Below, in pieces: positions 1 to 38,638 of a stretch of DNA of 38,638 nt. The notes beneath the pieces were generated by a model. It worked only from the letters and a program-made list of their open reading frames with translations. It was not told the DNA's origin and did no database searches. Numbering within the stretch: the stretch's first letter is position 1; every line of letters begins with the position of its first letter. Both the position numbers and the translations under genes were made by a program. Source of the stretch: a virus; the IMG/VR virus record IMGVR_UViG_3300042938_000134, positions 1-38,638 of that record. One strand, given 5' to 3'.

Positions 1-182
1 ACAAAAGGCTTGCCGTGCATGAAGCGATCTGTTTAGAGAGATACAACAACATTGACAAGTCACTGCGCGATGGGGACAAGCGCATGACCAAGATTGAATA
101 CCTTTTGTATGCGGTGATCATTGCGGTCTTGTTTGGACCAGGGGTGGCTGCCGAATTTGTCAAGAAAATATTCGGGCTATGA
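1..182 (+). CDS. Small membrane protein, 5' partial (copy A of 35609-35806)
   Basis: The open frame enters from the left edge (first full codon at position 3) and ends at TGA 180-182. It equals the C-terminal 59 residues of the complete copy at 35609-35806. An N-terminal charged helix is followed by one hydrophobic segment (YLLYAVIIAVLFGPG) and a short basic tail, an arrangement loosely like XhlA-type haemolysin or holin accessory proteins. The stop overlaps the next start as ATGA, so it is translationally coupled to the lysis cassette. Exact function is not known. The truncation is the contig edge, not a mutation. Confidence 0.7.
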   Translation, partial: KRLAVHEAICLERYNNIDKSLRDGDKRMTKIEYLLYAVIIAVLFGPGVAAEFVKKIFGL

Positions 183-271
183 GAGACTGGGCCGTGGCAA
201 TCATTGCCGCGGTCTGCATCACTGTCTTTGTGATCTGGGGCAGCTTTGTCATCGTTTTGTTGTGGCCATGA
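179..271 (+). CDS. Membrane microprotein, 30 aa (copy A)
   Basis: A 30-residue frame starts at ATG 179, overlapping the preceding stop (ATGA), and ends TGA 269-271, overlapping the next start. It begins MRDWAVAII and is almost entirely one hydrophobic helix. The same frame, the same length and the same overlaps exist in the second copy at 35803-35895 with several amino-acid changes, which supports real coding. It is probably an inner-membrane peptide of the lysis cassette; holin or antiholin activity is only a guess. Confidence 0.6.
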   Translation: MRDWAVAIIAAVCITVFVIWGSFVIVLLWP

Positions 272-393
272 TCTATGCTCTGGTCCTATTAGCAGCAGCT
301 GCCGAATACAGATGCACCAGGTGGGCATGGACCGGTGATGTCTACAATCGGAGGGTTGTTTGTCTCAAATGGGAAAAGGTTGAGAAAAGATGA
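268..393 (+). CDS. Small membrane-anchored protein, 41 aa (copy A)
   Basis: I place the start at ATG 268, which overlaps the upstream stop by 4 nt; an in-frame TTG much further upstream would run through two other coding frames. The protein (MIYALVLLAAAAEYR...) has a short N-terminal hydrophobic helix and then a basic, Trp-rich tail with two Cys. The equivalent in the second copy is 35892-36020 (42 aa). It ends in ATGA with the next gene. Function unknown; part of the chain of tiny membrane proteins before the spanins and endolysin. Confidence 0.6.
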   Translation: MIYALVLLAAAAEYRCTRWAWTGDVYNRRVVCLKWEKVEKR

Positions 394-890
394 TCATCGA
401 TCCAATTAGTGCATTAGAAGGTCTGCAAAGCGCCATCAGCATGGTCAAGAAGGCCAGCAAGGTGGCCAATGATCTGGGCGGTCTTGCGCCAATGATTGGC
501 AAGATGTTTGATGCCAAGAGTGTGGCCACCAAGGCCATGCTAGAAGCCAAGAGAAGCAAAAAAGGCTCAAACATGGGAGTCGCGCTCCAGATTGAGATGG
601 CCCTAGAGCAAAGTAGAGCTTTTGAAGAAAGCCTAAAAATGCTTTTCATGCAATCTGGGAAAATAGAAGTATGGCAGAAAATCAAGGCCAGGCAAGCTGA
701 GATGGACAGAGATGATGCTAAAGAGATTGCTGCCTTAAAGTATGCAGAAAAAAAGGCCAAAGAAAAAGAGCAAGAGCAGCTAGAGATCGGTCTGGCCATT
801 GGAGGTGTGTTCTTTCTTGCCTTTTTAGTGTTTGTTGGCATCAGTGAATTGATGGACTTTTGTGCCACCACAAGAAGGTGCGGTCGGTGA
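390..890 (+). CDS. Coiled-coil protein with C-terminal membrane segment (copy A)
   Basis: 166 residues. The first ~130 are helical and highly charged, with a likely coiled coil at about residues 95-130 (KARQAEMDRDD...AEKKAKEKEQEQ). One transmembrane segment follows at about 132-152 and a short Cys-containing tail ends the protein. ATG 390 overlaps the stop of the 41-aa gene; GTG 887 of the next gene overlaps this stop. The second copy (36017-36511) is clearly homologous but visibly diverged. I do not recognise a family. A tail-anchored protein in the lysis region could modulate holin function or contact the host envelope; this is inference. Confidence 0.75.
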   Translation: MIIDPISALEGLQSAISMVKKASKVANDLGGLAPMIGKMFDAKSVATKAMLEAKRSKKGSNMGVALQIEMALEQSRAFEESLKMLFMQSGKIEVWQKIKARQAEMDRDDAKEIAALKYAEKKAKEKEQEQLEIGLAIGGVFFLAFLVFVGISELMDFCATTRRCGR

Positions 891-1042
891 ATGAGTACCA
901 GAAGACCTTTGACCTTTGCCTCAAGATATTCATCTATGGGTGTGTGGCTTTATGGCTGCTTGGTTTTCTCCGCTTTTTGCCAGATGACTTGTCGGACCGG
1001 ATCGTCAATTTACTGCTGGGCAGGATAGGATTGGGCAAATGA
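887..1042 (+). CDS. Membrane microprotein, 51 aa (copy A)
   Basis: Start chosen at GTG 887, which overlaps the upstream TGA (GTGA); an upstream ATG at 860 would sit inside the preceding gene. The product is 51 residues with one hydrophobic helix (about residues 10-27, KIFIYGCVALWLLGFL) and a charged C-terminus ending in a second weakly hydrophobic stretch. The second copy at 36508-36663 has the same GTG start and length. Stop overlaps the lipoprotein start (ATGA). Function unknown; holin-like by size and context only. Confidence 0.6.
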   Translation: MNEYQKTFDLCLKIFIYGCVALWLLGFLRFLPDDLSDRIVNLLLGRIGLGK

Positions 1043-1242
1043 GATATTTATTGTTTCTTTTACTGCTGACTGGCTGCGAAGATCGGTATCGATATAAGTG
1101 CCAGAATCCTGACCATTTCCATGCACCAGAGTGTCAGAAGCCAAAGTGCTTATTTACCCAGATGTGTCCAGAATACTTGGTCGCACCAATACTTGAAAAG
1201 AAGGTGAATGATGTCCAGCCACAAGAGGAAGCCAAAAAATGA
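1039..1242 (+). CDS. Cysteine-rich small lipoprotein, 67 aa (copy A)
   Basis: The N-terminus MRYLLFLLLLTGC is a signal peptide with a lipobox (LLTGC), predicting lipid attachment at Cys13. The mature part has five further Cys and several His and Pro. The second copy at 36660-36863 is almost identical, differing mainly near the C-terminus. It sits between two membrane proteins with 4-nt overlaps on both sides. It is not the Rz1 spanin, which is nested further downstream; its partner is unknown. Confidence 0.7.
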   Translation: MRYLLFLLLLTGCEDRYRYKCQNPDHFHAPECQKPKCLFTQMCPEYLVAPILEKKVNDVQPQEEAKK

Positions 1243-1778
1243 AACTTTCTGAAGTTAAAAGCACAGAGGAAACGATTGAGCTTCTGAAAGTTTATGGGTG
1301 GCTTTTTGCAGTGGTTGTTGTCATGCTTGTCTTTGGCTTCACAGTCTTTGCAATGCTCTATTCTGTAATTTTTGTGACCCAACCAATCAAATCAATGGCC
1401 CCGATTGACAGTGCTTTTACCAAGCTCTTGAATGACGTTGTGCTTTTATTGGTTGGAAGTATCAGCACATTGATTGGTATGTTTGCCATCAACAAAGGCG
1501 CTAAATCATTTGCTGGAAGAATGAATCCAACGCCACCCATGGGCCAGTGTGTGGGCCAACCGATGATGGGCCAGCAATACGGCTACAGCAACAATCACGG
1601 GTTTAACGCAAAGACCAACGGCATCCCAAGCCAACCATTTGGCGCCATGCCCACTTGGACCAATCCAGAACTAGACGAGTCATGGACTCCTGGTCCACCA
1701 CCAGACACGCCACCGGACCATCTTGAGGATGACCATGAGCGCATTCAACTGGCGCAGGCCAGAGAGGAGTCAGAGTAA
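1239..1778 (+). CDS. Two-helix membrane protein with Pro-rich tail (copy A)
   Basis: 179 residues. Two strong transmembrane segments (about 20-45 and 66-85) are followed by a Met/Pro/Gly/Gln-rich tail with PPMGQ-like motifs and an acidic C-terminus. Two helices plus a cytoplasmic charged tail, directly upstream of Rz/Rz1 and endolysin, make it the best holin candidate here by position, although it is longer than typical class II holins. The second copy (36860-37405) is nearly identical over the membrane half and differs by a short insertion in the Met/Gln-rich stretch. The last base of its stop codon is the first base of the Rz start (ATAATG). Confidence 0.65.
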   Translation: MKLSEVKSTEETIELLKVYGWLFAVVVVMLVFGFTVFAMLYSVIFVTQPIKSMAPIDSAFTKLLNDVVLLLVGSISTLIGMFAINKGAKSFAGRMNPTPPMGQCVGQPMMGQQYGYSNNHGFNAKTNGIPSQPFGAMPTWTNPELDESWTPGPPPDTPPDHLEDDHERIQLAQAREESE

Positions 1779-2275
1779 TGCTACCAATACCCTTACCTTG
1801 GCTCATTGTTGGTGTCTTGGTCTCATTATTCGGTACATACCGAGTGGGCCACCACTACGGGTGGCTGGAGCGCGACAATGACATGAAGATTGCCATTGCC
1901 CAAAAGAATGATGAGGCCAGAGTTACCGAGCAAAAACTTAACGAGCAATTAAATGCAAACGCAACCAAGTTACAGGAGACCACTAATGTCATCAATCAAA
2001 AGCAGTCTGCCCTTGATCGTGCTATTCGCTCTGGCAGGGTGCGCATCTCAGCCCCCAGTTGTGTTCAAGCCAGCGCAAGTGCCACCATTACCGCCCCAGA
2101 TAGCAAAGAAGCAGGAAGCCAACTTGACAGACCGGCTGACCCAGCTCCTGATGCCGAGCGAGAAACCCTCCAAGCCATTGCCGAAATAGTGGCCCAAGGT
2201 GACAGGAACACGGCCCAGCTCAATGCCTGCATTGATGCCTATAACGAAGTAAGGAGTTTGGTCAATGGTCAATAG
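1778..2275 (+). CDS. Inner-membrane spanin Rz (copy A)
   Basis: 165 residues with the layout of an i-spanin: an N-terminal signal anchor (about residues 4-21), then a long periplasmic helical region with coiled-coil character (about 30-80), and a C-terminal segment with Cys and a YNEVR motif common in Rz proteins. With its outer-membrane partner Rz1, encoded inside this gene in the +1 frame, it would fuse inner and outer membranes at the last lysis step. It overlaps the endolysin start by 11 nt. The second copy (37405-37881) shares the layout but is strongly diverged in the periplasmic part. Confidence 0.8.
   Translation: MLPIPLPWLIVGVLVSLFGTYRVGHHYGWLERDNDMKIAIAQKNDEARVTEQKLNEQLNANATKLQETTNVINQKQSALDRAIRSGRVRISAPSCVQASASATITAPDSKEAGSQLDRPADPAPDAERETLQAIAEIVAQGDRNTAQLNACIDAYNEVRSLVNGQ
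1986..2189 (+). CDS. Outer-membrane spanin lipoprotein Rz1, nested in Rz (copy A)
   Basis: A 67-residue frame lies wholly inside Rz in the +1 register. I take ATG 1986 (MSSIKSSLPLIVLFALAGC) because it gives a proper signal peptide followed by lipobox LAGC; an in-frame upstream start at 1953 would place 11 extra residues before it. The mature protein is short and Pro-rich (KPAQVPPLPPQ), the hallmark of Rz1-type o-spanins. The same nested frame with the same lipobox exists in the second copy (37616-37858), which supports genuine coding. Confidence 0.8.
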   Translation: MSSIKSSLPLIVLFALAGCASQPPVVFKPAQVPPLPPQIAKKQEANLTDRLTQLLMPSEKPSKPLPK

Positions 2276-2858
2276 TCAGCAGCTCCAACAACTGCACATT
2301 GGCCCAGAGTGGGTCGATGCGCTCAATGAGACTTTCCAGCGCTTTGACATTTCAACGCCATTGCGCCAGGCTGCCTTTATTGGCCAGTGTGGCCATGAGT
2401 GCGGTAATTTCAAGGTGCTTCAAGAGGGTCTGTCATATTCTGCTGCCGGACTGATGAAGACATGGCCCAAGCGCTTTGATGCTGAAAAGGCCCAAGCCTG
2501 TCAGCGAAATCCAAAGCTCATTGCCAATGTCGTTTACTCTAATCGCATGGGAAACAGGGATGAGGCTTCTGGGGATGGGTGGCGTTTCAAGGGAAGAGGC
2601 TGCATCCAGCTGACTGGCTCTAGCTCTTATTTTCACGCTGGCAAGGCTTTGGGTGTTGACTTCTGGGCCAACCCGGAACTGGTGGCCACACCCCAGTATG
2701 CTGCGCTGACTGCCGGATGGTTTTGGGACACTCACAAGCTCAACCAGTATGCGGATAGTCAAGACTACAAGACCATGACCAAAAAGATCAATGGCGGCTT
2801 TATTGGCCTAGATGACCGGATCAAACACATCAACCATGCACTGTCTGTCCTGACATAA
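2265..2858 (+). CDS. Endolysin, GH19 chitinase-like lysozyme (copy A)
   Basis: 197 residues of glycoside hydrolase family 19, which in phages cleaves peptidoglycan glycan strands. Visible motifs are GHECGNF (catalytic Glu45), a second candidate acidic residue at Glu100 in RDEASGDG, the conserved GRGCIQLTG (about 110-118), and KINGG..GLDDR near the C-terminus. There is no signal peptide, so release presumably depends on a holin. Start ATG 2265 is preceded by AAGGAG at good spacing inside the end of Rz. The second copy is 37871-38464. Confidence 0.9.
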   Translation: MVNSQQLQQLHIGPEWVDALNETFQRFDISTPLRQAAFIGQCGHECGNFKVLQEGLSYSAAGLMKTWPKRFDAEKAQACQRNPKLIANVVYSNRMGNRDEASGDGWRFKGRGCIQLTGSSSYFHAGKALGVDFWANPELVATPQYAALTAGWFWDTHKLNQYADSQDYKTMTKKINGGFIGLDDRIKHINHALSVLT

Positions 2859-2865
2859 TTAACCC

Positions 2866-3516
2866 ATGGCCAGCCAAACCCAACAACTTGAAAATCCAGT
2901 AGTCCCAAACCTTGGTTATCCCACCGAGGTGTATGAGCGTAGGCATTTCAATGAGAACAATGGTTCTTTGAATATTTACTTTAAAAAGGTCTCAAGTGTC
3001 TTGGGGTCTTTGTTTGGATTACGGGGTGGGCGCTTTATGAATGCGCCTCATGGGGCATTCCAAGACTCAACTGACCAAGTGGCTGCCAACACCACCACGG
3101 CCTATGCTGTCACATTTAACACGACAGACTTTAGCAATGGTGTGACAATAGCCAGCAGCAGCCGAATTACTGTGGCCGATGCCGGAATCTGGAACTTGCA
3201 GTTTTCCATTCAGTTTACAAATACGACAAATGCCTCTCAAGATGTAGATGTCTGGTTTCGGGTCAATGGCACAAATTCGGCTAACTCAAACAGCCGATTT
3301 GGCTTTGCACCTAGAAAAGGTGCTGGAGACCCGTATCACATTATTGCAGCCATGAATTACTTTTTGAGCTTAAATGCGACTGACTATGTTGAGATAATGT
3401 GGAGGCCAACCGATGTCGGTGTCTCGATTGAGCAATACCCTGCCGGAACAACCCCCACACGGCCAGCAGTCCCATCAGCCATTGTCACAATGAGCTTTGT
3501 CTCAAACATTACCTAA
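2866..3516 (+). CDS. Virion-associated protein with beta-rich C-terminal domain
   Basis: 216 residues. The first ~55 residues (RRHFNENNGSLNIYFKKVSSVLGSLFG) are conserved with the partial copy at 38471 and resemble a particle-anchoring N-terminus. The rest alternates short hydrophobic and Thr/Asn/Ser-rich strands (for example NLQFSIQFTNTT, VDVWFRVNG), suggesting a jelly-roll or C1q/TNF-like beta-sandwich. It lies between the endolysin and the tail hub gene, so a structural or host-contact role is likely. Exact family not recognised. Confidence 0.65.
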   Translation: MASQTQQLENPVVPNLGYPTEVYERRHFNENNGSLNIYFKKVSSVLGSLFGLRGGRFMNAPHGAFQDSTDQVAANTTTAYAVTFNTTDFSNGVTIASSSRITVADAGIWNLQFSIQFTNTTNASQDVDVWFRVNGTNSANSNSRFGFAPRKGAGDPYHIIAAMNYFLSLNATDYVEIMWRPTDVGVSIEQYPAGTTPTRPAVPSAIVTMSFVSNIT

Positions 3517-5003: not shown

Positions 5004-5368
5004 GTGATCAAGAGCATTTGGAAAGGTTACGCCACCATGTGGAGGCGGCATTAGAATACTCTGGAGGCACACACAATTTTGATGACATTGCCGAGATGGT
5101 CCAGCGCAATCAATTGCAGCTGTGGCCAGCCAAAGACTCGGTGGTGTTAACAGAGATCATTGTCTATCCCAGGCTAAAAAATTTGCATTATTTTCTGGCT
5201 GGTGGCGACCTAGATGAACTCTCACGGATGAGACCAATGATCGAATCCTGGGGCAAATCACTTGGTTGCACCAGGGTGACTTTGGCAGGCCGAAGAGGCT
5301 GGTCAAAGACATTTTTGAAAGATGAAGGATACAGTCCACAATGGACTGTATTGGCAAAGGAGATATAG
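5000..5368 (+). CDS. GNAT acetyltransferase-like phage protein
   Basis: 122 residues. The C-terminal half (VTLAGRRGWSKTFLKDEGYS) follows the pattern of small phage GNAT-fold proteins, where a GR.GW.r.L...G motif replaces the canonical acetyl-CoA loop. Similar proteins sit next to internal virion protein genes in podoviruses. Whether it acetylates anything is unknown; the CoA-binding signature is poor, so a structural or assembly role is possible. ATG 5000 overlaps the upstream stop by 4 nt. Confidence 0.6.
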   Translation: MSDQEHLERLRHHVEAALEYSGGTHNFDDIAEMVQRNQLQLWPAKDSVVLTEIIVYPRLKNLHYFLAGGDLDELSRMRPMIESWGKSLGCTRVTLAGRRGWSKTFLKDEGYSPQWTVLAKEI

Positions 5369-5372
5369 GCAA

Positions 5373-7640
5373 ATGGCATCAGCTGGGTTGACTTGGGCGC
5401 TGAATAACGGCATGACTGCCGATCAGTATTATCAGAACATCTTTGATTTTGTTGCACAGAATCAAGGAATGTCTGACGCTGATTTGCGCTCTGCAATGGA
5501 CCAGTATGGCATCAGTTCAACTGATGTTGCTCAAGCCACTGGAACGAAGTCAGAGGCCGTTCAGCAACGCTATGAGGCCGTGCCAGTGGCAGCACCAGTG
5601 GCAGCACCAGTTGGTTTATTAGAAACACCAGTAACAGCGCCAGTGGTAGCACCAGTGGCAGAATCAATAGCAGCACCATTAGTAACAACGGGGTCAAATA
5701 TGGCATCAATAGCACTCAACTACGCGTTAAATAATGGCATGACGCAAGCGCAATATGATCAAAGAATCTTTGATTATGTTGCCCAAAACATTGCCACAAA
5801 AACACCGGCAGAATTACGCATTGAGATGGACCGACTTGGTGTCAGTCCAGACGATGTGGCCCGTGCCACTGGCGTGAGTGCTGCTGATGTCAAGGCTCAA
5901 TATGCTGAAGCATTGCCACAAACCCAAGCAGAAATGATTGCCAAGGCTGCGGCTGATAAGGAATTGGCAGGCCGTGTGGCCAAAGACACTACAGCCACTC
6001 AGGCGACCAAAGACATCTATACCCAAGCGGCTACTGTCTCTCAAGGCTTACTTGGACCAGATACGGCAGCACAAGCTAAAGCAGCGGCTGCGGCTGCTGC
6101 TTTGGCTGCCTCACAAAAAGCTGCTGCTGACAAATTGGCTGCTGATAATGCAGCAGCAGCGGCTGCTACAGCTGCTGCGGCTGCAAAAGCAAAGGCGGCA
6201 TCTGATAAGGCTGCAGCTGATGCTGCTGCCCTTGCTGCATCTAATGCAACTGCTGCGCAAAAAGCAGCAGCGGCCAAAGCGGCTGCCGATGCCAAAGCGG
6301 CATCAGACGCTGCTGCTGCTCAAGCGGCTGCTGATGCAAAGGCAGCTGCTGATGCAAAGGCTGCAACAGAAGCTGGATTGGCTGCTGCGGCTGCGGCAGC
6401 AAAGACTGCTGCTGATAAGGCTGCGGCTGACGCTGCGGCCATTGCTGCATCCAATGCAACTGCTGCCCAAAAGGCTGCGGCAGACAAGGCGGCTGCTGAT
6501 GCCTTGGCCGCATCTAATGCTGCTGCTGCAAAGGCTGCGGCTGATGCAGCTGCCAAAGCTGCGGCTGCGAAGACTACCAACACTACCACTGGCACACAAT
6601 CAGCAGCGCTTGCTTGGGCCTTGGCCAATGGTATGACACAGCAGCAGTATTATCAGAACATTTTTGATTTTTACAGGAACAACTCTGGTCTGTCTGACTC
6701 CATGTTGCGGTCTGAGATGGACCGATTGCAAATCAGCCCACAGGATGTGGCGGCTGCAACTGGTTCAAGTCTTGAAAGTGTTTTGGCACGATATAACAAC
6801 GCCAAGGCCACAACGCCAGCAGACATTGCAGCGCAGCAAAAGGCCCAAGCTGATCTGGCTGCACGCACAGCACAATGGCAGGCCCAGCAGGCAAAAAATG
6901 CTACTGATTGGGCTGCGCAGCAAAAGGCCAATGAGACTGCATGGGCTGCACAACAAGCCAAAAATGCTGCTGATTGGGCTGCGCAGCAGAAGCTGACGCA
7001 AACTGCGCAGAATGCTTATGGCGCAGCACCATTAACTCTTGGCCAGAAGTTTGGCAGCTATGAGTCAATCCCAATTGGCGCTCAATACAACCCTGCTGTG
7101 ACCCCTGGTGGCGCGTCACCCTACAGCATGGTCATGGGCCAGATGACCCCATTCCAAAACCCTTATGCCAACTTTGTGCCTGGCACATCTTTGGGTGGCT
7201 ATAACCCAAACCTATACAGCGACATTGCAACAAACAATGCAGCAGCGGCAGCGGCCAAAGCGGCTGCTGAAAATCAAGCTGCAAATACTGCATTGATGAT
7301 GACGGGTGGACCAGGTGATTCGACTGGTGACGCAGCTGCTGCAACTGCTGCTGCAACTGCTGCTGCCAATGCCGCCAATGCCGCTGCCGCTGTAACGGGT
7401 GAATCTGTCAGTGTCTCTGGTGAAACTGGCGAAAGTGTCAGTGGTATTTACAATAAAGGCGGCATTGTGGATGGGCTATTTGGTCCTAACCCACCTGGTC
7501 CTGACGATGGTGCTGGCTTGTTAGATCGTGGCGAGTATGTGATCAGGAAGTCATCAGTCAATAAGTATGGCCGTGGACTTTTGGACATGATCAATGAAGG
7601 CAAGATGCCAGCCAAGAAAATCAGATCATTATTGGATTGA
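5373..7640 (+). CDS. Large Ala-rich virion protein with a triplicated domain
   Basis: 755 residues from ATG 5373, chosen because GGAG lies about 10 nt upstream; an in-frame ATG at 5322 would overlap the previous gene. A ~65-residue module occurs three times: about residues 1-68, 109-177 and 409-478, each with a WALNNGM..YYQNIFDF-type block followed by an [IV]S..DVA.ATG segment. Between the second and third copies lies a very long Ala/Lys/Asp stretch (nt ~6040-6590), probably a continuous helix. A second low-complexity region repeats WAAQQKA units. The C-terminus (GGIVDG...PGPDDG..LLDRGEYVI) is a signature seen at the ends of many phage tail or internal virion proteins. Probably an ejection or tail-associated protein. 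Confidence 0.65.
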   Translation: MASAGLTWALNNGMTADQYYQNIFDFVAQNQGMSDADLRSAMDQYGISSTDVAQATGTKSEAVQQRYEAVPVAAPVAAPVGLLETPVTAPVVAPVAESIAAPLVTTGSNMASIALNYALNNGMTQAQYDQRIFDYVAQNIATKTPAELRIEMDRLGVSPDDVARATGVSAADVKAQYAEALPQTQAEMIAKAAADKELAGRVAKDTTATQATKDIYTQAATVSQGLLGPDTAAQAKAAAAAAALAASQKAAADKLAADNAAAAAATAAAAAKAKAASDKAAADAAALAASNATAAQKAAAAKAAADAKAASDAAAAQAAADAKAAADAKAATEAGLAAAAAAAKTAADKAAADAAAIAASNATAAQKAAADKAAADALAASNAAAAKAAADAAAKAAAAKTTNTTTGTQSAALAWALANGMTQQQYYQNIFDFYRNNSGLSDSMLRSEMDRLQISPQDVAAATGSSLESVLARYNNAKATTPADIAAQQKAQADLAARTAQWQAQQAKNATDWAAQQKANETAWAAQQAKNAADWAAQQKLTQTAQNAYGAAPLTLGQKFGSYESIPIGAQYNPAVTPGGASPYSMVMGQMTPFQNPYANFVPGTSLGGYNPNLYSDIATNNAAAAAAKAAAENQAANTALMMTGGPGDSTGDAAAATAAATAAANAANAAAAVTGESVSVSGETGESVSGIYNKGGIVDGLFGPNPPGPDDGAGLLDRGEYVIRKSSVNKYGRGLLDMINEGKMPAKKIRSLLD

Positions 7641-13431: not shown

Positions 13432-13632
13432 ATGCAATCAATTCACGACATCAAAGCAAAGGCTAAGGCCAACAAGATCACCATGGCTGCCGTGTGCAAT
13501 GAGGCTGGCATCCAGCAGTCCCAAGTGAGCCGGTGGCTGTCTGGGACTGTGGAGCCATTGTGGACATCAGTCAATCAATTGCACTTGGCGCTTGAGAAAC
13601 TGATTGACCAATCACCAGTCCACTGCGACTGA
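13432..13632 (+). CDS. Cro/CI-type HTH (XRE) regulator
   Basis: 66 residues. Residues about 17-42 (ITMAAVCNEAGIQQSQVSRWLSG) form a helix-turn-helix of the XRE family, followed by a short helical end, typical of Cro-size repressors. No Shine-Dalgarno is visible and an inverted repeat abuts the start codon, which could be an operator for autoregulation or an RNA hairpin. It is transcribed divergently from the endonuclease and its last 21 nt overlap the convergent ssDNA-binding protein gene. Confidence 0.75.
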   Translation: MQSIHDIKAKAKANKITMAAVCNEAGIQQSQVSRWLSGTVEPLWTSVNQLHLALEKLIDQSPVHCD

Positions 13633-16865: not shown

Positions 16866-19043
16866 ATGAAACCCCAACTTAAAGGAATTTCAGTGACCAT
16901 CTTAACTGAAACACCCCTGCCAGATACATTCAGTCAGTCCCAGTCAGTGGCCTGCAAGATTGGCGCTGTCGCCCCAGATGCAGTCTTCTGCACCTTTGCC
17001 CTGCAAGGCTCCAAAAAAATCCCGTACAAGCGGTCTGGCCAAGGTGTGGCCCGTGATACAGACCCGACTGACCTCTACAACGCTGAAGACGTTTGGGCCA
17101 TGGAGTCATGCCCTCATGGCCAGTACCTCGGCCTAGTGCAGCAGCGCCCCATCATCAGCGCATCAGGCAACTTTCTGGTTTGCCTTGATGTGGACATGAA
17201 GCACGCAAGTGGCCCCACAAACGTGGCCATCCAGCGCATGGCCAAGTACGTCAAGCAAAACAAGATGCTGACCGAGGTCTCTGTCTCAGGCCGTGGCCGC
17301 CATGTCTTCTTATGGACCCAACCGCCCAAAGAATCTGACCAGGTGCTGCCAAAGTACAAACTGGGCGGTGGTCAGGAGCTTGAGGTATTCGGCCTGCCAA
17401 ACTCTGCCGGCAAGTCAGTGCTACTCAGTGGCAATCAATTGGTCGGTGAATTCCAAGAGGCCGTGGACCTTTATGCCTTGCTCCAAGACTGGGGCATCAT
17501 TGAGCAGCACCAGCTGCAAGAGCCAAAGCCTGCCCCACCGAGTCAATCATTTGACTTTACCCAATTAGGCTCAAGACTGGATGACAGCGACCTTGATCGC
17601 GCCATCAAGGCTTTGCACCACATTTCCCCAGACTGCGATTACAGCCAGTGGATTGAGCTGGGCCAGGCGCTGCATACAGAATTCGGAGAGGCTGGTCTTG
17701 GCCCATGGATGACATGGTCCATGGCCGGCAACAAGTATGCAGGGACCAAGGACATAGAGACCCACTGGAAGAGCTTTCACCAGGGCAAAGGTGTTGGCAT
17801 TGGCACACTCTTCAAGCATGCCAAAGATTGCGGCTGGGAGCCACCGACAAAACAAACTGAGCGAAAGTCAGCCGTTGAAGACTTTGCAGCAGTGATCAGT
17901 CAGGCCCAAGCGCCAGTGGCCCAAGATGCGCCAGAAGAGGCCAAGGGCTGGCCAGAGCGAACTCTATCCATTGGCAGCCTCAAACCCATCCGCTACATGG
18001 TCAAAGGCTTTTGGGCGCATTCCTTTATGGTCCTTGCCGGTCAGCCTGGCATTGGCAAGACCACAGCAGTCATCTCTTTATGCATGGTCATGGCCGGATT
18101 ACAGGCCAAAGATTGCGCGCTCACTGCCACCAAGAAACGCAAAACAATCATAGTGACTGAAGACAGTGACCAGGTCGAAAGGACACTCACCGGATATTCA
18201 CGCCATTATGGGATTAGTGCCAGTGAACTCTCCAATTGGTTTGTCATTATCGATGCCAAGAGAAGCCAAGTTAAAGACTTACTCATGCTTGCACATAATG
18301 TGATTCACCACACAATAGATAATGTCCGGCCATTATTAGTATTAGATACAGCCAACGCCACAATGGATATTGATAATGAGAATGACAACTCAGAGGTCGG
18401 TAGTTTCATTGCAGCCCTAAAGCAGACCATCTACATCCAGCTGGACACGCCAGTCTGCATCATCACACACACCAACAAGACCATATCCAAGGCCGACTCA
18501 GATGCCACAGCCCGTGGAGCCAGCGCATTCACTGGTGACGCGACACTGACCGGTGTGCTGTTTGAAGATGAGACCAAGACCCGATACATGCGCTTGGTAA
18601 AAACCCGATACCAGCCCAACTTCAGAGAGATCAAATTCCACTCAGATGTCTTTGCCGACACTGTCCTGGATGAAGATGGCGACATCCAGGAACAAATGGT
18701 CCTCCTGGTGGTCCCAGAGATGTCATCAGAAGAGGATCGCAGGCAAGCTGCCAACGACAGGCAGAACGACAAGCGCCAGCAGCAAGTGCAAGATGCCGCT
18801 GACGCTGCCTGCAACTTTGTCCAGTCCATTATCAACGCCAAAGGCGCTGTCATCATGCGCAGAGGCTCTGGCCGCCCATCAGTACCAAAAGAAATGCAAT
18901 CGATGCACCAGCTGGAGTGGGCTGACATCTATCAGGCCGTGCCAATGGCTGATCAAAGCTATGCGAGAAAGGCCGTCAGCAGCGCCATTTTCCAGCGCTT
19001 CTGTCAGAACCAGTCAGGCACTGGATGGGTTCAATTAAAGTAA
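16866..19043 (+). CDS. PrimPol-helicase replication protein (AEP primase, PriCT, RecA-like ATPase)
   Basis: 725 residues. N-terminal archaeo-eukaryotic-type primase: LDVD (Asp108, Asp110), SGRGRH (141-146, His146) and ELEVF (171-175). A PriCT-2-like segment follows (about 243-325, SPDCDYSQWIELGQALH...GNKY.GTKDIETHWKSF). Then a RecA/RepA-like ATPase: Walker A GQPGIGKTT (392-400), Walker B LLVLDT, and IITHTNK..RGASAFTGDA downstream, as in AAA_25/RepA helicases. One protein could make primers (perhaps also polymerise) and unwind. No separate DNA polymerase is encoded. The stop TAA is the first triplet of an iteron array. Confidence 0.85.
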   Translation: MKPQLKGISVTILTETPLPDTFSQSQSVACKIGAVAPDAVFCTFALQGSKKIPYKRSGQGVARDTDPTDLYNAEDVWAMESCPHGQYLGLVQQRPIISASGNFLVCLDVDMKHASGPTNVAIQRMAKYVKQNKMLTEVSVSGRGRHVFLWTQPPKESDQVLPKYKLGGGQELEVFGLPNSAGKSVLLSGNQLVGEFQEAVDLYALLQDWGIIEQHQLQEPKPAPPSQSFDFTQLGSRLDDSDLDRAIKALHHISPDCDYSQWIELGQALHTEFGEAGLGPWMTWSMAGNKYAGTKDIETHWKSFHQGKGVGIGTLFKHAKDCGWEPPTKQTERKSAVEDFAAVISQAQAPVAQDAPEEAKGWPERTLSIGSLKPIRYMVKGFWAHSFMVLAGQPGIGKTTAVISLCMVMAGLQAKDCALTATKKRKTIIVTEDSDQVERTLTGYSRHYGISASELSNWFVIIDAKRSQVKDLLMLAHNVIHHTIDNVRPLLVLDTANATMDIDNENDNSEVGSFIAALKQTIYIQLDTPVCIITHTNKTISKADSDATARGASAFTGDATLTGVLFEDETKTRYMRLVKTRYQPNFREIKFHSDVFADTVLDEDGDIQEQMVLLVVPEMSSEEDRRQAANDRQNDKRQQQVQDAADAACNFVQSIINAKGAVIMRRGSGRPSVPKEMQSMHQLEWADIYQAVPMADQSYARKAVSSAIFQRFCQNQSGTGWVQLK

Positions 19044-19287
19044 AGCGGTAAAGCGGTAGTAAAGCGGTAGTAAAGCGGTATACCTGTTTAGACAATGGCT
19101 GGCTCTGTTGGTATAAGTGGGGTCCTTAGACCCACTTATCCACAGGCAAGTCTGGCAAGTTTTGTGATGGTGAAAAGTAAAGCGGTAAAGCGGTAGATTT
19201 CCTTTGTCTATACCGCCTTACTTTTAACGATTTTTGGAGGTAAAGCATGGTCCAACAAGTTGAGCAGTTATCCACAGCTTATCCACA
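19041..19287. other. Candidate replication origin 1: iterons, inverted repeat, DnaA boxes
   Basis: Six direct copies of TAAAGCGGTA occur at 19041-19050, 19049-19058, 19060-19069, 19071-19080, 19178-19187 and 19186-19195, with one imperfect inverted copy at 19211-19221. Between the clusters is an inverted repeat ATAAGTGGG (19113-19121) / CCCACTTAT (19131-19139). Perfect DnaA boxes (TTATCCACA) lie at 19136-19144, 19268-19276 and 19279-19287. This follows immediately after the replication primase gene. Iteron arrays of this type bind replication initiators; which protein binds here is unknown. Confidence 0.6.
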
Positions 19288-19579
19288 TTTGTGGGATGAG
19301 AGGGTTTTTTGCCATGAATGCCAACATTCGTGCATGGTCGAGCAGCGCCAGTCCATGCCAGCAGAGCAGATGGAAAGACACCGGAAGGTCAACTCAAAAC
19401 CACTCCAGTGGATGTTTGACCAGGCAAAGGTCAAAGGTGGTTGGGCAACTGTCACATGGTCCGAACACCAGTGTGGCCAGACCGGCCTCGCGGCATTCCC
19501 AACCGATGTCAAGCACCGGTGTCATATGTTCCAGACCAAAGCCTCGGCAGTAGAATCCGAGGAATGGTGGTTGACTTAA
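19247..19579 (+). CDS. Hypothetical Cys/His-containing protein
   Basis: 110 residues from ATG 19247, with a strong GGAGGT ribosome site 9 nt upstream. Cys/His residues (CHECQHSC near residues 22-29; further Cys and His at about 74-93) suggest a metal-binding fold. Its 5' coding end contains two perfect DnaA boxes. It overlaps the VRR-NUC start by 16 nt. No family recognised. Confidence 0.6.
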   Translation: MVQQVEQLSTAYPHLWDERVFCHECQHSCMVEQRQSMPAEQMERHRKVNSKPLQWMFDQAKVKGGWATVTWSEHQCGQTGLAAFPTDVKHRCHMFQTKASAVESEEWWLT

Positions 19580-20443: not shown

Positions 20444-20756
20444 ATGAATACCGAAGCATTCAGTCACTTTATACAACGACCATTATGTTAAGTGGATAAG
20501 TAGATATCCACAGAATTAAGTGCATCAAAGTATTACATCGACAGTTATGCACAGGAATCTGTGGATAAGGTTGGCCAAAATCCGTGGATAACCCAGCGGT
20601 GGCCGGTTGGCGGTCGGTGGCCGCGACCCCCCCTTGGCCGGCTTGGCGGGGGCGACTGTGGCGGCACTAAACAGCTACAAAAAAAATTTTTTAAAAAAGT
20701 AACAACTAACGCAAATTGTGCAAAAATGTCAACTCCACAAAACTACGGAGTAACGA
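20444..20756. other. Candidate replication origin 2 (or pac region): DnaA-box cluster with GC block and A/T block
   Basis: This 313-nt gap has no gene. It carries DnaA-box-like sites at 20491-20499 (minus), 20504-20512, 20545-20553 (TTATGCACA), 20560-20568 (minus, perfect) and 20583-20591 (minus). A strongly GC-rich stretch follows (20592-20666) with repeated GGCGG/GGCCGG words and a C7 (20627-20633) / G5 (20648-20652) hairpin. Then comes an A8T6A6 run (20679-20698) that could melt or bend. The order boxes-then-AT-block resembles bacterial origins; the position after terS would also fit a packaging site. Confidence 0.55.
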
Positions 20757-35608: not shown

Positions 35609-35806
35609 ATGGATGCCGATGTTGACAAAAGGCTTGCCGTGCATGAAGCGATCTGTTTAGAGAGATACAACAACATTGACAAGTCACTGCGCGATGGGGA
35701 CAAGCGCATGACCAAGATTGAATATCTTTTGTATGCGGTAATCATTGCGGTCTTGTTTGGACCAGGTGTTGCTGCCGAATTCGTCAAGAAAATATTCGGG
35801 CTATGA
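35609..35806 (+). CDS. Small membrane protein, XhlA-like layout (copy B, complete)
   Basis: 65 residues from ATG 35609 (MDADVDKRLAVHE); a GTG at 35603, which overlaps the upstream TGA, is an equally possible start adding two residues. A charged helical N-terminus (RYNNIDKSLRDGDKRMTKIEY) is followed by one transmembrane helix and a short KKIFGL tail. The layout recalls XhlA-type haemolysin accessory proteins. Complete version of the frame truncated at the left edge. Confidence 0.65.
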   Translation: MDADVDKRLAVHEAICLERYNNIDKSLRDGDKRMTKIEYLLYAVIIAVLFGPGVAAEFVKKIFGL

Positions 35807-35895
35807 GAGACTGGGCCGTGGCAATCATTGCTGCGGCCTCACTGGTGGCCACCATCATCTGGTGCTTCACTGTCATCATTTTGTTTTGGCCATGA
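35803..35895 (+). CDS. Membrane microprotein, 30 aa (copy B)
   Basis: ATG 35803 and TGA 35893-35895 overlap their neighbours by 4 nt, exactly as in copy A (179-271). The product begins MRDWAVAIIAAASLVATII and is a single hydrophobic helix ending FWP. The middle differs from copy A (VCITVFVIWGS) while the ends are conserved, the pattern expected for a selected membrane peptide. Confidence 0.6.
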   Translation: MRDWAVAIIAAASLVATIIWCFTVIILFWP

Positions 35896-36020
35896 TTTAT
35901 GCTCTGGTCCTATTAGCGGCAGCAGCTGTCGAATACAGATGTGTCAAATGGACATGGACCGGTGATGTCTACAATCGGAGGGTTGTCTGCATCAAGTGGG
36001 AAAAGGTAGAACGGAAATGA
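35892..36020 (+). CDS. Small membrane-anchored protein, 42 aa (copy B)
   Basis: Homologue of 268-393 with one extra residue (MIYALVLLAAAAVEYR...). N-terminal hydrophobic helix, then a basic tail with two Cys and a GDVYNRRVVC core unchanged from copy A. ATG overlaps upstream and downstream stops or starts by 4 nt. Confidence 0.6.
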   Translation: MIYALVLLAAAAVEYRCVKWTWTGDVYNRRVVCIKWEKVERK

Positions 36021-36511
36021 TCGATCCAATCAGCGCATTAGAAGGTCTGCAAAGCGCCATCAGCATGGTGAAAAAGGCCAGCAAAGTGGCTAGTGATCTG
36101 GGTTCATTAGCCCCAATGCTGGGCAAAATGTTCGATGCCAAGAGCCAATGTACCAAGGCCCTGCTTGATGCTAAGAAAAACAAAGGCTCAAACATGGGTC
36201 AGGCTCTTCAGATTGAGATGGCTTTGGAGCAAGCTAGAGCGTTTGAGGAAGAGTTAAAGATGCTCTTCATGACCACAGGTAAGGTTGACGTTTGGAACAA
36301 GATTAAAGCTCGTCAAGACCAGATGGACATTGATGACGCAAGAGAACTTAGGGCTTTAGAGAGAGCAGAGAAGAAGGCTAAAGAGAAGGAAGATGAGATG
36401 AATGAGTTAGCCATGATCATTGGCGGTGTGGCTTTTGTTTTGTTCTTGGTTGGAATCGGTATCTATGAACTCATGGAGTTTTGTGATACCACTAAAAGGT
36501 GTGGTCGGTGA
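36017..36511 (+). CDS. Coiled-coil protein with C-terminal membrane segment (copy B)
   Basis: 164 residues from ATG 36017 (MIDPISALEG), overlapping the upstream stop; copy A has one extra Ile at its start. N-terminal 50 residues are well conserved with copy A; the coiled coil (about 95-130) and membrane segment (about 131-151) are diverged but keep their character. Function unknown. Confidence 0.72.
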   Translation: MIDPISALEGLQSAISMVKKASKVASDLGSLAPMLGKMFDAKSQCTKALLDAKKNKGSNMGQALQIEMALEQARAFEEELKMLFMTTGKVDVWNKIKARQDQMDIDDARELRALERAEKKAKEKEDEMNELAMIIGGVAFVLFLVGIGIYELMEFCDTTKRCGR

Positions 36512-36663
36512 ATGAGTACCAGAAGACCTTTGACCTGTGCCTCAAGATATTCGTTTACGGGTGTGTGGCATTATGGTTTCTAGGCTTCTTGAAGTTTTTG
36601 CCGGATGACCTCTCGGACCGCATCGTTAATTTACTGTTGGGCAGAGTAGGATTGGGAAAATGA
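36508..36663 (+). CDS. Membrane microprotein, 51 aa (copy B)
   Basis: GTG 36508 overlaps the preceding TGA (GTGA), as in copy A at 887. Conserved residues include NEYQKTFDLCLKIF and LPDDLSDRIVNLLLGR. One transmembrane helix. TGA overlaps the lipoprotein ATG. Conservation of start codon, length and overlaps across the two diverged copies supports coding. Confidence 0.6.
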   Translation: MNEYQKTFDLCLKIFVYGCVALWFLGFLKFLPDDLSDRIVNLLLGRVGLGK

Positions 36664-36863
36664 GATATCTATTGCTTCTTTTACTGCTGACTGGCTGCGA
36701 AGATCGTTATCGATACAAGTGCCAGAATCCTGACCATTTCCATGCACCAGAGTGTCAGAAGCCAAAGTGCTTATTTACCCAGATGTGTCCAGAATACTTG
36801 GTCGCACCCATCTTGGACAAAAAGATTGGTGATGTCCAACCACAAGAGGAAGCCAAAAAATGA
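36660..36863 (+). CDS. Cysteine-rich small lipoprotein, 67 aa (copy B)
   Basis: Signal peptide MRYLLLLLLLTGC with lipobox LLTGC at Cys13. The mature part is nearly identical to copy A for its first ~40 residues; differences fall near the C-terminus (LDKKIGDV against LEKKVNDV). Overlaps both neighbours by 4 nt. Confidence 0.7.
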   Translation: MRYLLLLLLLTGCEDRYRYKCQNPDHFHAPECQKPKCLFTQMCPEYLVAPILDKKIGDVQPQEEAKK

Positions 36864-37405
36864 AACTTTCTGAAGTTAAAAGCACAGAGGAAACGATTGA
36901 GCTTCTGAAAGTTTATGGGTGGCTTTTTGCAGTGGTTGTTGTCATGCTTGTCTTTGGCTTCACAGTGTTTGCAATGCTCTATTCTGTAATTTTTGTGACC
37001 CAACCAATCAAATCAATGGCCCCGATTGACAGCGCTTTTACCAAGCTCTTGAATGACGTTGTGCTTTTATTGGTTGGAAGTATCAGCACATTGATCGGAA
37101 TGTTTGCCATCAACAAGGGTGCTAAATCATTTGCTGGAAGAATGAATCCAACGCCACCCATGGGCCAGTGCATAGGCCAGCCCATGCAGGGCTATGGCCA
37201 GCAATACGGCTACAGCAACAATCACGGGTTTAACGCAAAGACCAACGGCATCCCATCACAGCCATTTGGTGCAATGCCCACTTGGACCAATCCAGAGCTA
37301 GACGAGTCTTGGACTCCTGGTCCACCACCAGACACGCCACCGGACCATCTTGAGGATGACCATGAGCGCATTCAACTGGCAGCTGCTAGACAGGAGGCTG
37401 AATAA
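36860..37405 (+). CDS. Two-helix membrane protein with Pro-rich tail (copy B)
   Basis: 181 residues. Membrane half identical to copy A in amino-acid sequence; the Met/Gln/Gly stretch is longer by two residues (QPMQGYGQQYG) and the C-terminus ends AAARQEAE instead of AQAREESE. Two transmembrane helices (about 20-45, 66-85). Best positional candidate for holin. The last base of its stop is the first base of the Rz start. Confidence 0.65.
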   Translation: MKLSEVKSTEETIELLKVYGWLFAVVVVMLVFGFTVFAMLYSVIFVTQPIKSMAPIDSAFTKLLNDVVLLLVGSISTLIGMFAINKGAKSFAGRMNPTPPMGQCIGQPMQGYGQQYGYSNNHGFNAKTNGIPSQPFGAMPTWTNPELDESWTPGPPPDTPPDHLEDDHERIQLAAARQEAE

Positions 37406-37881
37406 TGTTTGGAATACCACTCCCTTGGATTGCATTTGCTGTGGGCATTGCCCTGCTTGGCTCATACAAAGGCGGCTATCACTATGGATGGACAGACAGG
37501 GACAATGACATGAAGCTGGCCATTGCCCAAAAGAATGAAGAGGCCAGAGCCAAAGAGGCAGAGCTTGGCACTAAATTGATTGATCAGGAAACGAAACTCA
37601 GAAAGGCCCAAGATGATGTCAAGAAAAAACAGTCTGCTATGCATGAGCTTGCTCGCACTGGCCGGCTGCGGCTCCCAGCCCCAAGTTGTCCACAAACCAA
37701 TGCAAGTACCCCCATTGCCCTTGGAAATCCACAACCCACAGATACCACTGAAACCGAACTTGAGCGACAGACTATTGCAGCTCTTATCGACATCGCAGCC
37801 GAAGGAGACAAAGCAATCACCAAGCTCAACGCCTGCGTCAGCGCCTACGAAGAAGTAAGGAGAATTGTCAATGGTCAATAG
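37405..37881 (+). CDS. Inner-membrane spanin Rz (copy B)
   Basis: 158 residues with N-terminal signal anchor (MFGIPLPWIAFAVGIALLGSY), a coiled coil about 30-85, and C-terminal Cys and YEEVRRIVNG motif. The anchor-proximal DRDNDMK.AIAQKN.EAR block and the C-terminus match copy A; the region in between, which also encodes Rz1, is highly diverged. Overlaps the endolysin start by 11 nt. Confidence 0.8.
   Translation: MFGIPLPWIAFAVGIALLGSYKGGYHYGWTDRDNDMKLAIAQKNEEARAKEAELGTKLIDQETKLRKAQDDVKKKQSAMHELARTGRLRLPAPSCPQTNASTPIALGNPQPTDTTETELERQTIAALIDIAAEGDKAITKLNACVSAYEEVRRIVNGQ
37616..37858 (+). CDS. Outer-membrane spanin lipoprotein Rz1, nested in Rz (copy B)
   Basis: 80 residues from ATG 37616 (or 37613, one residue longer), nested in the +1 frame of Rz. 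Signal peptide SLLCMSLLALAGC with lipobox LAGC; mature part Pro-rich (MQVPPLPLEIHNPQIP) and longer than in copy A, with a Ser/Thr/Pro/Lys tail. It keeps the VPPLP core of copy A. Confidence 0.8.
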   Translation: MSRKNSLLCMSLLALAGCGSQPQVVHKPMQVPPLPLEIHNPQIPLKPNLSDRLLQLLSTSQPKETKQSPSSTPASAPTKK

Positions 37882-38464
37882 TGAGCAATTGTCTAGGCTG
37901 CACATTGGTCCAGAGTGGGTCGATGCGCTCAACGAAACATTCCAGCGCTTTGATATTTCAACGCCACTGCGCCAGGCTGCCTTTATCGGCCAGTGTGGCC
38001 ATGAGTGCGGCAATTTCAGAATCCTTGAAGAGAACTTGAACTACAGAGCAGAAGCACTGCAAAAGCTCTGGCCCAAGCGCTTTGATGCGGCCAAGGCACA
38101 GATGTGTGCCAAGAATCCCAAGCTCATTGCCAACACTGTCTACAGCAGCCGAATGGGCAACCGAGATGAGGCAAGTGGTGATGGATACAGATTTAGAGGC
38201 CGTGGGTGCATCCAGCTCACAGGGTCTGCGAACTACCACCATGCTGGCAAGGCGCTGGGTGTGGACCTGATCATGCAGCCCGAGCTGGTGGCCACACCCC
38301 AGTATGCTGCGCTGACTGCCGGATGGTTCTGGGACACCCACAAGCTCAACCAGTATGCAGACAACCAAGACTATCGGACCATGACCAAAAAGATCAATGG
38401 CGGGTTCATTGGCCTCGATGACCGCATCAAGCACATCAACCATGCCCTGTCTGTCCTGACATAA
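37871..38464 (+). CDS. Endolysin, GH19 chitinase-like lysozyme (copy B)
   Basis: 197 residues from ATG 37871, preceded by AAGGAG; a TTG two codons earlier is less likely. Catalytic GHECGNF (Glu45), Glu100 in RDEASGDG, GRGCIQLTG and KINGG..GLDDR are all retained. Compared with 2265-2858, substitutions cluster in residues about 49-82 and 105-135 and are few elsewhere. Function as for copy A. Confidence 0.9.
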   Translation: MVNSEQLSRLHIGPEWVDALNETFQRFDISTPLRQAAFIGQCGHECGNFRILEENLNYRAEALQKLWPKRFDAAKAQMCAKNPKLIANTVYSSRMGNRDEASGDGYRFRGRGCIQLTGSANYHHAGKALGVDLIMQPELVATPQYAALTAGWFWDTHKLNQYADNQDYRTMTKKINGGFIGLDDRIKHINHALSVLT

Positions 38465-38470
38465 TTAGCC

Positions 38471-38638
38471 ATGGCCACTAAGCAGCAACAATTAGAGACT
38501 CCATCGATACCGAGTCTGGGTTTCCCCCCAGAAGCGTATGAGCGCAGGCACTTGAATGAGAACAATGGTTCTTTGAATATTTACTTTAAAAAGGTCTCAA
38601 GTGTCTTGGGGTCTTTGTTTGGATTACGGGGTGGGCGC
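38471..38638 (+). CDS. Virion-associated protein, 3' partial (copy B of 2866-3516)
   Basis: 56 codons run off the right edge. The first ~27 residues (MATKQQQLETPSIPSLGFPPEAYERR) differ from copy A, after which the frame is identical in DNA to 2950-3033. This identical end is what would let an assembler or a circular genome join back to 3033, continuing into the beta-rich domain encoded to the left. Confidence 0.7.
   Translation, partial: MATKQQQLETPSIPSLGFPPEAYERRHLNENNGSLNIYFKKVSSVLGSLFGLRGGR

Follow-up and report, generated by a model that had tools for sequence, protein, structure and literature searches.

Directly downstream of the gene encoding a 725-aa primase–helicase, the genome of an uncultured podovirus carries a compact element of short iterons, a hairpin and consensus DnaA boxes (positions 19040–19287), which, judging from its sequence, is very probably the site where replication of the phage starts. 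The element lies in a 38,638-nucleotide stretch of viral DNA, the whole of IMG/VR record IMGVR_UViG_3300042938_000134, hereafter the window (Table 1). This reading is based on the anatomy of the element, its conservation in about 105 related loci, the co-inheritance of iteron type with the C-terminus of the proposed initiator (Rep), covariation within the hairpin, constraint on the DnaA boxes, GC skew and the replication domains of Rep. Counting against it are the absence of a standout AT-rich element, the shortness of the iterons (11 bp) and a C-terminal fold of Rep that has no match. The initial annotation had proposed an iteron origin of the plasmid kind that also uses host DnaA, and this is the best-supported reading, with a skew change recurrent in every relative.

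The portal and capsid proteins are of the SU10 podovirus type, in agreement with the earlier description of the virus as a podovirus. It may be lytic, as also described: a search for phage-plasmid maintenance genes covering ParA-type ATPase, resolvase and integrase found none of them in the phage genome, yet a Cro/C1-type HTH gene is present at 13432–13632. The supposed lack of a phage DNA polymerase stands for the PolA and PolB families, of which no member was found, PolC/DnaE lying outside the search, and the PrimPol domain of Rep may polymerise by itself. The neighbourhood of rep encodes a SNF2-type helicase, a PD-(D/E)XK exonuclease and an Enc34-type single-strand binding protein. The two ends of the record (1–3033 and 35625–38638) repeat each other stretch by stretch with 67–97% identity and a constant offset of about 35.6 kb, and the record is likely a genome of about 35.6 kb, circularly permuted, in whose assembly the two ends come from different population variants. 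The lysis genes are present twice, once per record end; this duplicated module was set aside as a likely product of the assembly of two population variants. The origin region is unaffected by the record-end repeat. Elsewhere in the window (5322–7640), a 772-aa, Ala-rich protein with short tandem repeats had no PHROGs match.

Pfam domains PriCT_2 and AAA_25 were detected in Rep, whose structure, predicted with moderate to low confidence, has fold matches to the NrS-1 phage primase-polymerase at the N-terminus and to RecA/Rad51/DnaB ATPases in the middle part. Its AEP motifs, DVD and SGRGRH, do not vary among relatives. Rep is a PrimPol–PriCT2–AAA_25 protein and falls outside the classical two-winged-helix Rep class, and its helicase domain is RecA/DnaB-like rather than SF3. 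The helix–strand order of the predicted C-terminus is suggestive of a winged helix; a DNA-binding fold is not confirmed there, since the C-terminal domain gave no significant PDB match by structure or by sequence and no domain in a Pfam search. Plasmid relatives were discarded, their matches being confined mostly to the PriCT-2 region.

Table 1. Proposed origin region of the phage and associated features (window coordinates)
Feature	Position	Strand	Basis
rep, 725-aa PrimPol-PriCT2-RecA-type helicase, proposed initiator	16866..19043	+	Pfam, fold matches, AEP motifs
rep codons 626-725, C-terminal domain co-inherited with iteron type, proposed iteron reader	18741..19040	+	
Iteron cluster 1, four overlapping/adjacent direct GTAAAGCGGTA (starts 19040, 19048, 19059, 19070)	19040..19080	+	repeat search, simulations
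Inverted diverged iteron TACCTGTTTAG, end of cluster 1	19081..19091	-	sequence reading; position and inversion kept in relatives
Hairpin TAAGTGGGGTC-CTTA-GACCCACTTA, one-base bulge	19114..19138	.	fold z, compensatory changes
DnaA box 1 (TTATCCACA), over hairpin 3′ arm	19136..19144	+	exact match, relatives
Iteron cluster 2, two overlapping direct copies (starts 19177, 19185)	19177..19195	+	repeat search
Inverted iteron TACCGCCTTAC, one mismatch, end of cluster 2	19211..19221	-	1-mismatch search
DnaA box 2, in ORF 19247-19579	19268..19276	+	exact match, codon-position constraint
DnaA box 3, in ORF 19247-19579	19279..19287	+	exact match, codon-position constraint
110-aa ORF, no family assigned, DnaA boxes 2 and 3 in first codons	19247..19579	+	
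Second DnaA-like box cluster, five boxes (one exact), clade A only	20491..20591	.	

The six TAAAGCGGTA repeats initially annotated in two clusters were all recovered as exact copies when the whole 38.6-kb record was searched (19041, 19049, 19060, 19071, 19178 and 19186), the first overlapping the rep stop codon (19041–19043) as had been claimed. Allowing one mismatch over the 38.6 kb added a single copy, inverted, at 19211–19220, which makes seven sites (expected 0.81; a count matched by none of 100 shuffles). Neither six copies of any 10-mer nor three exact DnaA boxes within 160 bp occurred in 150 simulated genomes (0/150 for each), and a chance repeat was thus ruled out. The repeat unit is the 11-bp GTAAAGCGGTA, with starts 8, 11 and 11 bp apart in cluster 1 and 8 bp apart in cluster 2, and each cluster is followed by an inverted copy; the one behind cluster 1, an eighth and more diverged iteron, reads TACCTGTTTAG, i.e. 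CTAAACAGGTA, and TAAACAGGTA is an iteron variant occurring in relatives. Multiple direct repeats therefore adjoin the gene of the proposed initiator, as in iteron origins. The three DnaA boxes are exact TTATCCACA sequences, as stated initially, but not every one comes after the iterons: box 1 (19136) lies between the clusters, overlapping the 3′ arm of the hairpin, and boxes 2 (19268) and 3 (19279) lie inside the next ORF. One extra exact copy was found at 20560. In the 60-bp windows sampled across the element, AT content reached at most 62%, and no clear AT-rich unwinding element was seen.

Two IMG/VR scans provided about 110 usable loci, and the layout, its offset from rep and the DnaA boxes are kept in about 105 loci of relatives, drawn from IMG/VR and a single phage record. 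In clade A, whose initiators are 72–96% identical, the offset and spacing of the element are unchanged. Clade B, with initiators about 51% identical to those of clade A and including phage record MW202879, has iterons (GTCGGAGATAC) unrelated in sequence to GTAAAGCGGTA, with the spacing and inverted copy retained: an 8-bp part, 11-bp direct copies, an inverted copy and the hairpin with DnaA boxes are followed by a second cluster with inverted copies and then another DnaA box. A further locus (L151, initiator 67% identical), from a contig that binning assigned to Acidimicrobium, shows another iteron variant and a hairpin to match; this genus was set aside as host, the genome-contig scan having given one contig, in a MAG possibly misbinned. 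Behind the PriCT-2 gene, no iteron array was found in Enterobacter phage Arya or Caulobacter phage GB2A, and none of this iteron kind in Acinetobacter phage Acjo_20. Pseudomonas stutzeri phage pAN (L154, 6659–6984) carries an unrelated iteron-like array, GTGTTGGGT, in direct and inverted copies adjoining its PriCT-2 gene, with no DnaA boxes.

Among the loci with enough sequence for counting, at least two exact TTATCCACA occur in the 300 bp after rep in 73/73 of clade A and 31/32 of clade B. After rep there are about 3 DnaA boxes per 250 bp, against 0–0.3 in almost every other bin within 5 kb; the other peak, at about +1.4 kb, is restricted to clade A. In ORF 19247–19579, the third codon positions within boxes 2 and 3 are almost frozen, whereas surrounding ones vary, and the consensus DnaA boxes are maintained by selection. 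The cluster of five DnaA-like boxes at 20491–20591, between terS and terL, is kept in clade A and absent from clade B, and is possibly an accessory element. Behind terS, both clades have a GC-rich stretch (20610–20700; CGACCCCCCC..GGGGGCGAC) with a conserved A/T tract after it, perhaps a packaging site or promoter element. MW202879 (L084) additionally encodes a serine resolvase behind terS (966–1634), which is lacking in the window. An origin served by the phage initiator alone, with the DnaA boxes as accessory sites for regulation or sequestration of host DnaA, dispensable for opening, would fit the presence of helicase and primase in the same protein, the activity of P4- and pRN1-type initiators at origins without DnaA boxes (PMC4234260), and the box-free array behind the related gene of phage pAN. 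We consider this unlikely, though with appreciable weight, since 104 of the 105 loci keep two or more exact boxes, at nearly fixed offsets and even within a reading frame.

GC skew points to the same place. Between 11 and 30 kb, cumulative skew has its minimum at 18,909, and in 1-kb windows the skew is negative before the rep stop (76/76 in clade A, 34/34 in clade B) and positive after it (66/66 and 30/30). A skew change near 19.0–19.3 kb had been set in advance as a test of the origin, and it was found, with the sign changing at the rep stop in every relative. The genes flanking the turn on both sides share one direction. At fourfold-degenerate sites in the window, genes on the left side of the element tend towards more negative values than genes on its right, with gene-to-gene variation, and the first downstream ORF (19247–19579) is still negative; because of this gene dependence and this negative ORF, we take the skew as support rather than proof.

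Within clade A, the iterons switch array-wide between GTAAAGCGGTA, GTAAACCGGTA, GTAATGCGGTA and CTAATRCGGAA, some arrays being mixed. One group of loci (R: L031, L032, L036, L038) combines the helicase domain of group G1 with the C-terminus and iterons of group G2, while G2 and G3 have helicase domains about 95% alike and differ in their iterons and in most of the C-terminus (about 40–80% identical by stretch). The corresponding trees conflict: R groups with G1 (support 0.998) and G2 with G3 (0.992) in the helicase-domain tree, whereas R groups with G2 (0.919), and R, G1 and G2 together (0.971), in the C-terminus tree. In a set of 64 sequences, the correlation of iteron distance is 0.95 with the distance between C-termini (partial 0.82) and 0.85 with that between helicase domains (partial 0.26), and there is none with the primase and PriCT-2 parts. 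Since iteron type tracks the C-terminal 100 residues of Rep in natural recombinants, these last ~100 residues are the likely reader of the iterons. As the codons for the C-terminus adjoin cluster 1, linkage may contribute to the co-inheritance. Cluster 2, used as a control, lies closer to the downstream gene; it tracks the Rep C-terminus (partial r 0.53) and not the downstream protein (−0.06), in 47 sequences because the start-site pattern missed ten loci. At the other end of rep, codons 1–350 (primase and PriCT-2, 16866–17915) mix freely among clade A groups that are well separated in the helicase part, so that the gene is a mosaic with several recombination points.

The inverted repeat that had been annotated between the iteron clusters was confirmed as a hairpin, with a DNA fold z of about −3.2 for either strand. 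Every distinct clade B sequence forms 14 pairs, and in clade A eight pairs are 99% formed; in each clade, three pairs changed on both sides, and the covariation signal was lost in slid controls. The structures were derived from the same sequences as the covariation test, which favours the percentage paired and not the double changes. Both clades retain a bulge of one or two bases, and in both the 3′ arm extends into a DnaA box. In pRN1, the essential origin element is a hairpin downstream of the replication gene; such a hairpin has been proposed for BPP-1-like phages as well, and the hairpins of RSF1010 are priming sites (PMC4234260); by analogy, a role as priming site is plausible here. A terminator was rejected, the hairpin having no U-tract and no intrinsic terminator being called there by the scan. 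The hairpin might also work as RNA, as a processing or attenuation signal of the rep message instead of a DNA priming site: it lies just 3′ of rep, and its covariation is compatible with RNA as well as single-stranded DNA. The missing U-tract and terminator call speak against this, and the arm running into a DnaA box in both clades indicates a role as DNA, which leaves the RNA reading rather improbable, if not lightly dismissed.

That the iterons are operators through which a phage regulator or initiator controls ORF 19247 and the genes beyond, with DnaA as transcription factor and the origin elsewhere, would suit the position of cluster 2, with its inverted copy, a short way ahead of the ATG at 19247 and the Cro/C1-type HTH protein encoded at 13432–13632, but is very hard to reconcile with an iteron type that tracks the primase–helicase C-terminus, a scan that found no promoter-like site at the array, a GC skew that turns at the element and a combination of array, hairpin and DnaA boxes exceeding an operator's needs. 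Autoregulation on top of origin function is possible.

We therefore hold, with high confidence, that the best explanation overall is an origin directly 3′ of its initiator gene, working by the following course, whose binding, opening and priming steps we infer. The last ~100 residues of the 725-aa protein would bind the 11-bp iterons in each cluster, a step indirectly supported by the co-inheritance of iteron type with this end; the later steps are drawn from the protein families involved. The bound initiator would join the two clusters across the ~85-bp spacer, host DnaA on the three boxes would aid duplex opening, and the RecA/DnaB-type helicase ring of the initiator itself would load onto the opened DNA. 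The first primers might be laid by the primase of the initiator or by host primase, possibly at the conserved hairpin in the manner of the RSF1010 ssi sites, and would be extended by host Pol III. More tentatively, and with somewhat less than even confidence, these podoviruses may possess a one-polypeptide starter (PrimPol, RecA-type helicase and origin reader) that co-opts host DnaA, the reader domain and iteron–hairpin array being exchanged between phages as one cassette, so that viruses would fall into groups by origin specificity, and the hairpin serving for priming.

For most uncultured phages the replication origin has yet to be mapped; here sequence alone narrowed one down to about 250 bp throughout a large group of phages. 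The natural exchanges of domains single out the C-terminus of a PrimPol–helicase as origin reader, a role so far only proposed for such proteins, and the many matched iteron/domain variants constitute a ready test set for changes of initiator specificity. The element also suggests a podovirus drawing on host DnaA.

No description of this origin was found in a search of the open-licence literature. Iteron, RSF1010, pRN1 and P4-type origins are already known, and the phage element is a new version of them, not a new kind. Like RK2 oriV, pSC101, F and P1 oriR, it has direct initiator sites near rep and consensus DnaA boxes at fixed positions. It differs in its 11-bp iterons, against the usual 17–22 bp of iteron plasmids (PMC4980987), in having no clear AT-rich unwinding element, in being carried by a podovirus, and in its PrimPol–helicase fusion in place of a two-winged-helix Rep; this initiator class sets it apart from classical iteron-plasmid Reps despite the iteron/DnaA-like working. 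The oriV of RSF1010/IncQ (RepC, RepA, RepB′) likewise combines iterons and a hairpin with a RecA-type helicase and a primase acting at the origin, a likeness by function; the phage apparently unites these functions in one polypeptide, and has one hairpin plus DnaA boxes where RSF1010 has two ssi sites. The alpha protein of P4, whose helicase is SF3, likewise unites in one polypeptide a primase, a helicase and a part that recognises the origin, and acts on short repeats. Its primase is of the Toprim type (PMC4234260), and the phage origin adds DnaA boxes. With pRN1 (ORF904) and Bordetella phage BPP-1/BIP-1, the phage shares an AEP PrimPol–helicase fusion and a presumed origin hairpin directly 3′ of its gene, a stem-loop known there from pRN1 and BPP-1-type phages (PMC4234260). 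Those systems have an SF3 helicase and no reported iteron origin (PMC4234260), whereas the phage has a RecA/DnaB-type helicase and iterons. PrimQH-type AEP proteins of mobile elements, likened here by domain order, consist of AEP, PriCT and RecA-type (RepA/DnaB) helicase followed by a C-terminal part, whose winged helix has been proposed for origin recognition (PMC5862659). Such a winged helix is not confirmed in the phage Rep, and the phage adds visible candidate cognate sites co-inherited with the C-terminus; the element apparently supplies the sites cognate to a PrimQH-like protein.
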